A stretch of 64,000 nucleotides of DNA, taken from assembly GCF_018860545.1 (NCBI RefSeq), contig NZ_JAHKPN010000052.1, forward strand, positions 1 through 64,000, given 5' to 3'. Made by a program: the position numbers and the translations under genes. This document shows, in pieces, positions 47,259 through 50,315 of this stretch. The notes beneath the pieces are model-generated. The model was given only the letters and a program-made list of their open reading frames with translations. It did no database searches and was not told where the DNA came from. Source of the DNA: Winogradskyella psychrotolerans. GTDB taxonomy: Bacteria > Bacteroidota > Bacteroidia > Flavobacteriales > Flavobacteriaceae. Each line of letters begins with the position of its first letter. Position 1 is the stretch's first letter.

Positions 47259-47367
47259 TTGAAATATAATTAGCAGAAATGTTAAGGTAATATATTTTTC
47301 ATTTCAAACATAATTCGGTGTAAACTATTCAATTTTACTATTTTTACATTCAACTAATAAAAACACA

Positions 47368-48186
47368 ATGTCTACAGCAAAAAAAGAATATAAAAGAATC
47401 ACGGTTAAAAGCCTCATAGATATGAAATCTAGAGGTGAAAAAATATCAATGCTTACGGCTTATGATTATACCATGGCTAAAATCGTTGACGGCGCTGGTA
47501 TTGACGTCATTTTGGTCGGTGATTCTGCAAGTAATGTTATGGCAGGGCACGAAACTACATTACCCATTACATTAGATCAGATGATTTATCACGCCTCTTC
47601 TGTTGTAAGAGCTATCGATCGTTCTTTGGTAGTAGTTGATTTACCTTTTGGAAGTTACCAAAGTGACCCGAAAGAAGCCTTGCGTTCTGCCATTAGAATC
47701 ATGAAAGAATCTGGCGGACACGCTGTTAAAATGGAAGGTGGAAAAGAAGTCAAAGAATCTATAAAGCGCATTTTACATGCCGGAATTCCTGTTATGGGTC
47801 ATTTAGGATTGACACCTCAATCTATATACAAATTTGGAACTTATACGGTCAGAGCCAAAGAAGAGCAAGAAGCAGAACAACTAAAGCACGATGCTTTAAT
47901 GCTTGAAAAAGCAGGATGTTTTGGCATTGTTTTAGAAAAAATCCCTGCAGCATTAGCTAAAGAAGTTGCTGAAAGCGTTTCTATTCCTGTCATCGGAATT
48001 GGTGCAGGAGCAGATGTGGATGGCCAAGTTTTAGTATTACACGATATGCTTGGTATGACTCATGAGTTTAATCCTCGTTTTTTACGTCGCTATATGAATC
48101 TTTATGAGGAAATGACAACTGCTATTGGTCAATATGTAGATGATGTGAAGTCTGAAGATTTTCCTAATGATGAGGAACAATATTAA
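47368..48186 (+). CDS. panB: 3-Methyl-2-oxobutanoate hydroxymethyltransferase (PanB)
   Basis: Makes ketopantoate for pantothenate and CoA synthesis. [19 protein letters not shown] near residue 30, [16 protein letters not shown] near 49 (metal Asp), the later metal-binding [11 protein letters not shown] near 90, and [11 protein letters not shown] near 145 mark the TIM barrel. 272 aa is normal. It has no other pan gene near it. The inverted-repeat array begins 10 nt after its stop. Confidence 0.95.
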
Positions 48187-48195
48187 TATAGATTG

Positions 48196-48275
48196 TTGGA
48201 TCTTTGGATTATTGGATTATTGGATTGTTGGATTATTGGATTGTTGGATTATTGGATTGTTGGATTGTTGGATAA
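48196..48275 (+). repeat. Tandem array of ten 8-bp units, left flank of the four-helix-bundle gene
   Basis: Ten 8-bp units of consensus TTGGATTR (first TTGGATCT, last TTGGATAA, the rest TTGGATTA or TTGGATTG) run without gap. The same type of unit occurs inverted at 48694-48749, on the other side of the four-helix-bundle gene, so the arrays could pair in RNA. Confidence 0.92.
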
Positions 48276-48344
48276 GTTGATTAAAATGAGATTACCAAAA
48301 ACTTAAATATTAGTAATTACTTGTCAATTAATAGTTGAAAAACA

Positions 48345-48695
48345 ATGCATCGATTTAAAGATTTAGAAATTTGGAAAAAAAGCAGACTATTTTGTACTTC
48401 AATTTACGAAATCACATCTAAATTCCCTGATTCTGAAAGATTTGGACTCACCAACCAATTAAGAAGAGCTTCTGTCTCTATACCTTCTAATATTGCAGAA
48501 GGCTCATCAAGAAGTTCTAATAAGGATTTCTCGAGATTTCTTCAAATTACCCTTGGCTCTGCATATGAAATTGAAACACAATTATTAATTGCATTTGATT
48601 TAAAATTTATAAGCAATCAAGAACTAAACGATTTACTAAAAGAACTTGAATCCATTATTAAAATGACCTCAAAATTTAAATCTACACTCAATTGA
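48345..48695 (+). CDS. Four-helix bundle protein (23S rRNA intervening-sequence / S23 family)
   Basis: A 116-aa all-helical protein of the IVS/S23 type (FKDLEIWKKSRLF at the N-terminus, LTNQLRRASVSIPSNIAEGSS near residue 35, shown in part, and LLKELESIIKMTSK near 95). In some bacteria this gene sits inside 23S rRNA within an inserted, RNase-III-removed sequence; here it is free in the chromosome, but bracketed by inverted repeat arrays. RNA binding is inferred. Related in fold to the avd protein of diversity-generating retroelements, but no reverse transcriptase or variable repeat is here. Confidence 0.9.
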   Translation: MHRFKDLEIWKKSRLFCTSIYEITSKFPDSERFGLTNQLRRASVSIPSNIAEGSSRSSNKDFSRFLQITLGSAYEIETQLLIAFDLKFISNQELNDLLKELESIIKMTSKFKSTLN

Positions 48696-48749
48696 ATTCA
48701 AAGATCCAAAGATCTAAAAGTCTAAAGATCTAATAATCCAATAATCCAA
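48694..48749 (-). repeat. Inverted array of seven 8-bp units, right flank
   Basis: Seven 8-bp units on the minus strand, in order TTGGATTA, TTGGATTA, TTAGATCT, TTAGACTT, TTAGATCT, TTGGATCT, TTGAATTC. They are inverted relative to the left array (48196-48275) and start at the end of the four-helix-bundle gene. The next gene begins 2 nt further on. Confidence 0.9.
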
Positions 48750-48750
48750 C

Positions 48751-49452
48751 ATGTCTAAGAAAATCTTATCAAATAAAAACAACCTACAAGTTATTCACGA
48801 GGATAATCACATCATTGTGATTAACAAACGTGCTGGTGATATAGTGCAAGGTGACAAAACAGGAGATAAACCGCTGAGTGAAGTGGTTAAGTCGTATTTA
48901 AAGGACAAATATAATAAAGAAGGGAATGTTTATCTAGGTGTAGTACATCGTTTAGATCGACCAACCACAGGTAATGTTATGTTTTCAAAAACAAGCAAAG
49001 CTTTACCTCGACTTAATAAATTATTTGCAGAAAAAACTGCCAAGAAAACCTATTGGGCATTAGTAAAGCAACAGCCACCAAAAACTGAAGATACGCTTGT
49101 GCATTGGCTAAAAAAGAATCCTAAAAACAATAAATCTACCGCATATATTAAAGAAGTTGAAGGCAGCAAAAAAGGAATTCTGCATTATAAAGTCATCCAA
49201 AAACTTGATAACTTTTATTTACTTGAAATTGATTTAGAAACCGGAAGGCATCACCAAATTCGGGTGCAATTAGCCTCCATCGGCTGTCCCATAAAAGGGG
49301 ATTTAAAATATGGGTTTGATCGCAGTAATAAAGATGCTAGCATTAGTTTACATGCTAGAACCTTACGTTTTGTACATCCTGTAAAAAAAGAAGAGGTATT
49401 TATTACCGCACCATTACCAAACGATCCACTTTGGAATGCCTGCAATGTTTAG
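48751..49452 (+). CDS. RluA-family RNA pseudouridine synthase (paralogue 2)
   Basis: Catalytic motif LGVVHRLDRPTTGNVMF near residue 67-85 (Asp of HRLD), with GRHHQIRVQLASIGCPIKGD near 165. 233 aa, no S4 domain. The ATG is 1 nt after the repeat array, so its leader and ribosome site fall within or before the array. Overlaps the convergent kinase gene by 4 nt. Substrate RNA is unknown. Confidence 0.88.
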   Translation: MSKKILSNKNNLQVIHEDNHIIVINKRAGDIVQGDKTGDKPLSEVVKSYLKDKYNKEGNVYLGVVHRLDRPTTGNVMFSKTSKALPRLNKLFAEKTAKKTYWALVKQQPPKTEDTLVHWLKKNPKNNKSTAYIKEVEGSKKGILHYKVIQKLDNFYLLEIDLETGRHHQIRVQLASIGCPIKGDLKYGFDRSNKDASISLHARTLRFVHPVKKEEVFITAPLPNDPLWNACNV

Positions 49453-50315
49453 GTAGTTTTGTAGGGATATTTCAAGGACAAACTAGTACCCTTTTCAATT
49501 TGTGACTCCAAAAGAAGTATTGCATTTAATAATTCTGCTCTTTTCCCCATATTAATAAGTCCAGAACCCTTTTCAGCTTTACTAACATCAAAACCTTTAC
49601 CATCATCCTCAGCTTTGATGTTTAAGACGTCCTCTTTATACTCTAAAGATACTCGCAAGTGCTCAGCTTCAGCATATTTTAGGGTGTTTGAAAAAAATTC
49701 TTGAAGAATTCTAAATAAGATAATTTCATCTTTTTTATTCTCAAAATTTACCTTCTCTCCTGTTATTGATAATGTAGAATCAATAAGCCCCGATTTATTT
49801 AAGCGGACCACTTCATTTTTTAAGGTTGCCTCAAAACCTAAATTAAAGATGACATCGCTATTTAGTGATCTAGATAACGCTCTTACTTCATCTAATGTGT
49901 TTTTTAGAGTTTCTGCCGCATTATTAACTTTAGTCTTAGCTTCGTTATTCACAGCGGTTAAAGCCGCATTCATTTGCATTGTAGACATCACGAGCATTTG
50001 CCCAATATTGTCATGCAATTCTCTACCAACATGTTTTAAGGTTTCTTCCTGAATTTCTTGTTGCGTCTTTAACAACTCTTCATCAAATCGTTGCTGCTGT
50101 TCAGCATTTCTTAATAAAAGCTGATTTTTCCGTTTTTGGTAAAAGACAAAAAAGAGAATGACTAATGAGCATATAATGATTAATACAATAATCATATATA
50201 TAATTAAATTCCGTTCTGCCTGAGTACTAATTATTGGGCCTTTGGCTTGCAAAATAGCAACGCAGCTGATAACGTCATATAAAGAAAAATGTTTAATGAT
50301 AAGTGAATTTTCCAT
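49449..50315 (-). CDS. Single-TM sensor histidine kinase (HisKA_3 / NarX type)
   Basis: N-terminal TM at about 37-58 (start from 50315), then a coiled linker, dimerisation/phospho-acceptor helix HVGRELHDNIGQMLVM near residue 93 (His in RELHDN), and HATPase_c with FFSNTLKYAEAEHL near 215 and DDGKGFD and GSGLINMGKRAELL near 240-265. The 50315 ATG makes an 85-nt overlap with the preceding gene; TTG at 50252 or ATG at 50195 (Met 41, which begins right at the TM) are better candidates. No partner response regulator is in the locus. Confidence 0.8.
   Translation of the reverse strand: MENSLIIKHFSLYDVISCVAILQAKGPIISTQAERNLIIYMIIVLIIICSLVILFFVFYQKRKNQLLLRNAEQQQRFDEELLKTQQEIQEETLKHVGRELHDNIGQMLVMSTMQMNAALTAVNNEAKTKVNNAAETLKNTLDEVRALSRSLNSDVIFNLGFEATLKNEVVRLNKSGLIDSTLSITGEKVNFENKKDEIILFRILQEFFSNTLKYAEAEHLRVSLEYKEDVLNIKAEDDGKGFDVSKAEKGSGLINMGKRAELLNAILLLESQIEKGTSLSLKYPYKTT

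Follow-up and report, generated by a model that had tools for sequence, protein, structure and literature searches.

In this study, a 64,000-nucleotide stretch of Winogradskyella psychrotolerans DNA (the whole stretch is referred to as the window) was compared with other genomes around one locus, where an S23 gene is enclosed by two inverted tandem arrays between panB and an RluA-family gene. The chances seem to us about even that this locus represents a widespread type of element that intervenes in protein operons, whose arms would pair in the transcript and probably be cut by an RNase, and whose protein is kept by selection. We lean slightly towards a broader reading as well: free-standing S23 genes with locus-specific inverted heptad or octad arrays would form an unrecognised, cross-phylum class of protein-operon intervening sequences, with rRNA intervening sequences (IVSs), the S23 genes of CRISPR operons and single bracketed copies among its members, and with arms that change in concert while their letters are free, so that pairing and not the letters would be what is recognised. 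The features of the locus are as follows.

47368..48186, + strand: panB (3-methyl-2-oxobutanoate hydroxymethyltransferase), upstream neighbour; TIGR00222, 330.5 bits (cut-off 207.55)
48191..48273, + strand: 5' arm, 8-bp units of TTGGATTR type, head-to-tail (TRF and unit listing)
48345..48695, + strand: S23 / 23S_rRNA_IVP four-helix-bundle gene, 116 aa (PF05635, TIGR02436)
48695..48749, - strand: 3' arm, seven inverted units (TRF and unit listing; score 50 when aligned to the 5' arm)
48751..49452, + strand: RluA-family pseudouridine synthase, downstream neighbour; PF00849, 120.4 bits

The S23 gene scored 138.5 bits with PF05635 (cut-off 33.8) and 131 bits with TIGR02436 (cut-off 24), and the relatives of its protein among PDB sequences were 2gsc (XCC0516; E 8e-24) and 2rld (E 1e-4). 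The RluA-family gene reached 172.9 bits with TIGR00005 in a profile search, under the cut-off of 192.7. A preliminary description of this DNA had reported ten TTGGATTR units to the left of the gene and seven inverted units of the same type to its right, and TRF and the unit listing agreed with it on the positions of both arrays and the gene: the left array (48191-48273) held 10.4 copies of 8 bp at 88% match, the right array (48695-48749) 6.9 copies at 78% match. The unit counts stood, and the unit itself proved looser than described. Eight of the ten left units were exactly TTGGATTR, the other two being TTGGATCT and TTGGATAA; the right arm, reverse-complemented, consisted of TTGGATTA twice, TTAGATCT twice, TTAGACTT, TTGGATCT and a 7-letter end, with exact TTGGATTR in only two of seven units and related units, for example TTAGATCT, in the remainder. 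The motif occurred 19 times in the window; 100 shuffles averaged 9.0 occurrences and never exceeded 16. The 5' arm began 4 nt past the panB stop codon, and the 3' arm stopped 1 nt short of the ATG of the RluA-family gene. When the region was folded as RNA (48187-48750), as the preliminary description had proposed, it gave -127 kcal/mol against a 100-shuffle mean of -99.3 (sd 4.8; z -5.8), and the inverted flanks are thus predicted to be able to form a stem around the S23 ORF. No transposase was seen within the element. A simple sigma-70 scan, of limited power in an organism of this kind, returned no promoter-like site on the + strand of 47300-49500; Rfam gave no match at the gathering score, its single match at E 0.12 looking like chance, and phage records gave no match.

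PF05635 identified six S23 copies in the window genome (G000). Most of these loci are bracketed by inverted 7- or 8-bp arrays, and the unit differs per locus: the inverted-flank scores were 50, 20, 32, 42, 32 and 27, five of the six being at least 27. Since the TTGGATTR array was confined to one of the six loci and the others carry other units, a fixed end sequence for the element was rejected. The shared end sequences, or near-identical copies at different sites, expected of an IS or a MITE were not seen, similar proteins at different junctions being few. The preliminary description had held that arrays unlinked to the gene would make the bracket incidental. This objection holds in part: nine single 7/8-bp arrays lie apart from S23 genes in 857 kb of the window genome, but no inverted partner found for them within 2.5 kb scored above 23, whereas two S23 arrays reached 50 and 32. 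Arrays away from S23 genes included G000:C7:110547-112502 and 117706-117816 (L230), C7:114-138 (L225), C7:69643-69671 (L228), C1:17269-18260 (L205) and C2:7394-7427 (L244), and some of the nine start right after a stop codon or finish right before a start codon.

Inverted flanks across the S23 family

PF05635 was present in 59 of 68 genomes of a genus sample, 232 of 296 of a class sample and 233 of 296 of a phylum sample (the genomes of the latter two partly overlapping), and the best 80 of 587 loci were taken from a named-genome sample. The survey compared the flank before each S23 gene with the reverse complement of the flank after it; 14 of 230 loci were dropped (one short protein, L131, as well as short flanks and near-duplicate flanks), leaving 216, and as these are mostly the best-scoring copy per genome, typical S23 genes and relatives of the window are over-represented among them. 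At a score of at least 28, inverted flanks were found in 110 of the 216 S23 loci (mostly Bacteroidota), compared with 3.1% of swapped pairs and 1.7% of 664 other ORFs, and direct orientation reached this score at 27 of 216 loci. At a score of at least 24, the respective values were 144 of 216, 6.9%, 3.9% and 36 of 216, so clear arms are missing at a third to half of S23 loci at the two thresholds used. A smaller run of 124 loci, with 250 nt before the gene and 200 nt after it, gave at score 28 57 loci with inverted flanks, 3.1% of swapped pairs, 0.7% of 140 other genes and 12 in direct orientation. In a first test of 35 loci with 400-nt flanks, only 3 scored above the 99th percentile of the swapped pairs, and the inverted mean (30.6) was nearly equalled by direct repeats at the same loci (27.8); this test was weak because the same unit recurs at many of the loci, inflating the swapped control, and because long flanks enter genes.

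An unplanned blind test came from S23 genes among the control ORFs. By HMM, 11 of the 664 were S23-like, and arms were present in 7 of these 11 as against 4 of the other 653 (Fisher p 1e-11). Of the 11 control ORFs scoring at least 28, 7 proved to be additional S23 genes. With the 110 of 216 surveyed loci, this extends the IVS-like architecture that had been proposed for the window gene to the S23 family in general. Extra S23 genes with their own inverted arms, no more than about 2 kb from the first one and at other junctions, were noted at L259, L264, L273, L274, L287, L289 and L310. In the open-access literature, no account of S23 genes that lie between protein genes and are flanked by inverted tandem arrays was recognised, a result that does not prove their absence from print.

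With arms called at a transition-tolerant score of at least 30, 127 of the 216 loci possessed them, with a median length of 33 nt. Among the 115 5' arms of at least 24 nt, 57 had period 7 and 20 had period 8, while shuffled arms gave none at 7 or 8. G exceeded C in the 5' arm at 112 loci and C exceeded G at 10, a bias that was rejected as strand (RNA) evidence because an inverted repeat is identical from either strand. The elements are placed at gene junctions. According to a simple ORF finder, both neighbours were co-directional with S23 at 192 of 216 loci (112 of 127 with arms), compared with 114 of 175 other genes. From the upstream stop to the beginning of the 5' arm the median distance was 0.5 nt (10-90%: -16 to 17); between the end of the 3' arm and the downstream ATG it was 2 nt (10-90%: -51 to 35). 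The loci group into 90 junction clusters, and the junctions hosting S23 include thiolase/FadE, FadB-like/thiolase, HemC-like/hemE, cysN/cysQ, two parts of MetH, GDP-mannose dehydratase/epimerase and two methylmalonyl-CoA mutase genes. In Flavobacterium columnare, a four helix bundle gene located between guanylate kinase and nicotinate-nucleotide adenylyltransferase has been tabled among phage elements (PMC5524665) and may be another gene-junction S23 insert.

Outside Bacteroidota, inverted flanks were found at eight of nine loci chosen by label (Armatimonadetes 25, Chlorobiota 45, Gastranaerophilales 64, Verrucomicrobiia 55, KSB1 28, Pontiellaceae 35, Lambdaproteobacteria 46, Gracilibacteria 36 and SAR324 30), labels that may be wrong because the genomes are mostly metagenome-assembled; a tenth locus (L314) was left out for its short flank. 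Cyanobacterial plasmids gave a similar picture, with inverted flanks at seven of eight loci (scores 18, 59, 63, 30, 52, 29, 55 and 46) chosen among the 15 matches listed of 30 records. Three of these eight S23 genes ran opposite to the genes on either side, and two of the three, L353 and L354, had arms. Both are exceptions to co-direction, the neighbours of L353 being two ribonucleotide reductase genes.

Descent, selection and concerted arm change

The comparison of empty sites between panB and the RluA-family gene, which the preliminary description had suggested, was carried out on 67 same-genus panB loci. S23 preceded the RluA-family gene at 23 of them (one partial, L167) and was absent at 42, and the RluA-family gene was not found at the other 2. 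The panB-rluA gaps with S23 measured 417-595 nt; S23-free gaps were as tight as -4, 6, 8 and 8 nt, and some contained other open frames. The closest relative by PanB (99%) had no S23. A gene without arrays that keeps its neighbours in all relatives, which would also have spoken for an incidental bracket, was not what we saw, as many copies at conserved junctions stay bracketed. Four S23-free panB-rluA junctions (L136, L138, L142 and L149, from G016, G067, G027 and G057) carried a one-sided (AGTAAGC)n array at the panB stop. Six further relatives (L150, L155, L156, L172, L175 and L181) had about 510 nt at this junction with, by eye, another small open frame and no S23, suggesting that the junction may accept different inserts.

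On the S23 tree (FastTree, few columns), the 14 junction groups needed 23 changes, against 102 with shuffled labels. A single change sufficed for seven groups, including that of the window (27 loci, several genera, support 94); four needed 2 or 3, and three needed 4 to 9 (J0 8, J2 9, J7 4). Among S23 protein pairs at least 70% identical, near-copies kept, 568 shared a junction and 31 did not. The median dN/dS was 0.10 (range 0.03-0.28; 48 independent pairs), and the S23 protein is under purifying selection. Taken together, these results indicate that most copies are old and have been passed on by inheritance, and that the protein matters. The idea of a mobile element, raised in the preliminary description, lost ground in its recent form: the S23 tree and the gene junction largely agree, and the pair counts leave recent transposition unsupported as an explanation. 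Reverse-transcriptase mobility was rejected as a present requirement, as a PF00078 match is missing in 53 of the 68 genus genomes; none was found in G000 (6 S23 copies), nor in the two genomes of the genus richest in S23, G024 (16) and G046 (15).

The two arms of a locus match each other in a locus-specific manner. When two loci shared a junction, own arms outscored crossed arms in 237 of 239 pairs with 30-50% S23 identity, in 130 of 145 with 50-60%, in 93 of 136 with 60-70% and in 179 of 282 with 70-80%, but in only 83 of 195 with 80-90% and in 30 of 78 with more than 90%; equal windows were used, and the counts are not independent because pairs share ancestry. When one most diverged pair per junction was taken, own arms prevailed over crossed arms by 20 to 8 of 32. 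By these counts, both arms drift together over long times.

The mismatches between the arms bear on the strand in which they might pair. Across the 127 loci with arms, 307 mismatches were of A.C type and 193 of G.U type, A.C prevailing at 74 loci and G.U at 25; for one locus per junction the figures were 30 and 11, and the antisense duplex was more stable at 34 of 53 and the sense duplex at 17 of 53 (p 0.014). The 13 phylum-set loci were balanced (4 to 4). If the sense RNA were under selection, G.U should outnumber A.C, so the A.C excess argues against strict selection on a sense-RNA stem, although the window copy runs opposite, with 8 G.U-type mismatches and no A.C-type ones. The excess was mostly A in the 5' arm and C in the 3' arm, and a preference for A in leaders could explain it. 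We read these data as arm pairing that is retained, with a helix unpolished in the sense RNA.

Possible explanations of the bracket

The element as we conceive it comprises an S23 gene inside two mutually reverse-complementary tandem arrays, reaching from a stop codon to the next start codon, and would most likely be read within the operon transcript. In the RNA, the arms would pair to form a long stem that loops out the S23 cistron, and as both arms are tandem, slippage in one of them would still leave a pairing register. If 23S rRNA intervening sequences are a guide, RNase III or another double-strand RNase would probably cut this stem; the cut would separate the S23 message from the flanking cistrons, and the insert would thus do little harm. 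The S23 protein may act for the element or the host, perhaps by RNA binding. That the element acts in the operon transcript is favoured by its co-direction with the neighbours, by its position from stop to start codon and by the rRNA precedent. Against this reading stand the A.C excess, the lack of clear arms at a third to half of S23 loci, the pairs above 80% identity, in which own arms do no better than crossed ones, and the three plasmid genes that are antisense to their neighbours.

The arms might instead act in the DNA, as the ends of a mobile element that are perhaps recognised by shape and moved at a low rate by a partner enzyme in trans. One gene with inverted ends, a junction filled or empty within a genus, the spread across phyla and onto plasmids and the two armed elements antisense to their neighbours would suit such ends, as would the 7 of 14 junction groups for which a single change on the S23 tree is not enough, three of these requiring 4 to 9. 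We nevertheless consider this unlikely, since similar copies elsewhere are few (31 pairs of at least 70% identity at different junctions vs 568 at the same one), neither a transposase inside the element nor PF00078 in the window genome, G024 or G046 was found, and DNA ends would not require the co-direction seen at 192 of 216 loci. Nor do we give much credence to a cis-regulatory bracket, in which the stem would cover the downstream translation start, the S23 protein or ribosome movement would open or close it, and S23 would serve as a local regulator. The 90 junction clusters tie no single pathway to the element; moreover, 42 of 67 relatives manage without S23 at panB-rluA and the stem is unpolished for sense pairing, which weigh against the points that the 3' arm finishes at the downstream start codon (median 2 nt), that the protein is conserved and stays long at one junction, and that several junctions link related functions (thiolase/FadE, FadB-like/thiolase, cysN/cysQ, methylmalonyl-CoA mutase, MetH). 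It is very improbable, in our estimation, that the arms are ordinary slippage-prone intergenic repeats tolerated by S23, with a functionless inverted match produced by template switching. Brackets are rare at other genes (4 of 653), and template switching alone would not pick one family; the nine single arrays in 857 kb, which along with the arrays at four S23-free panB-rluA junctions speak for such repeats, have a best inverted partner of 23 against 50 and 32 for S23 arrays.

Relation to known systems

An intervening element of operon transcripts, the reading we prefer, would have a counterpart in the 23S rRNA IVS with an S23 ORF, which carries GACAGAT heptamers at its 5' end and is excised by RNase III (PMC4990558). 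Like the window element, that IVS has an S23-family ORF in the loop and inverted flanks as the stem, and it resembles the operon elements in its heptameric 5' repeats and its size (428 nt vs the 417-595 nt of the panB-rluA gaps). The window insert holds an S23-family ORF over the cut-offs of PF05635 and TIGR02436, as an rRNA-type IVS does, but it lies between two protein-coding genes, panB and the RluA-family gene, and not in an rRNA gene; furthermore, both of its arms are tandem, its unit is locus-specific and its processing is putative. Production of the S23 protein in vivo from the 23S rRNA IVS was doubted by the authors (PMC4990558), whereas the purifying selection found here suggests that the protein of the operon copies is made. 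The functionality and origin of IVSs were said to 'remain unclear' (PMC4990558); with many naturally bracketed genes now at hand, and relatives in which the site is empty, the origin, spread and tolerance of IVSs and the role of the S23 protein become testable. Complementarity that is conserved while the letters are free is an unusual rule in itself.

Other systems share single traits with these elements. 23S_rRNA_IVP ORFs occur in insertions of the 16S and 23S rRNA genes of CPR bacteria (PMC11270868), where the same protein family sits inside inserts of transcribed genes, with the difference that these are rRNA genes; no statement on inverted arrays was found in the available portion of that report. 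Avd of diversity-generating retroelements (DGRs) is a distant relative of the window protein, with 26.2 bits for NF033474 and 23.3 for PF22296, under the cut-offs of 80 and 40. PF05635 was the commonest Pfam in the data of a DGR survey and was taken there as Avd-like (PMC10053308); the window protein falls outside DGR Avd, as the equivalog cut-off is unreached and G000 has no PF00078 match. The TAACTGA heptamer repeats of Beggiatoaceae, cyanobacteria and a few Bacteroidetes are, like the arms, intergenic 7-bp tandem arrays near start codons, but they have one fixed unit in direct orientation (PMC4679880), and the portion of that paper available returned 0 hits for four-helix or intervening-sequence genes.

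Finally, 23S_rRNA_IVP genes inside CRISPR-Cas loci have been reported earlier (PMC3936711; PMC10910872), and they belong to the same family as three armed plasmid copies that we found inside CRISPR operons, namely L356 (cas10/cmr3) and L352 and L357 (cas6/cas4). Those reports associated the function of the genes with CRISPR-Cas, whereas S23 here looks like another gene-junction insert, which offers an alternative reading of the CRISPR-Cas S23 genes as gene-junction inserts and not parts of the immune system. At L352, the left side holds arrays in both orientations.
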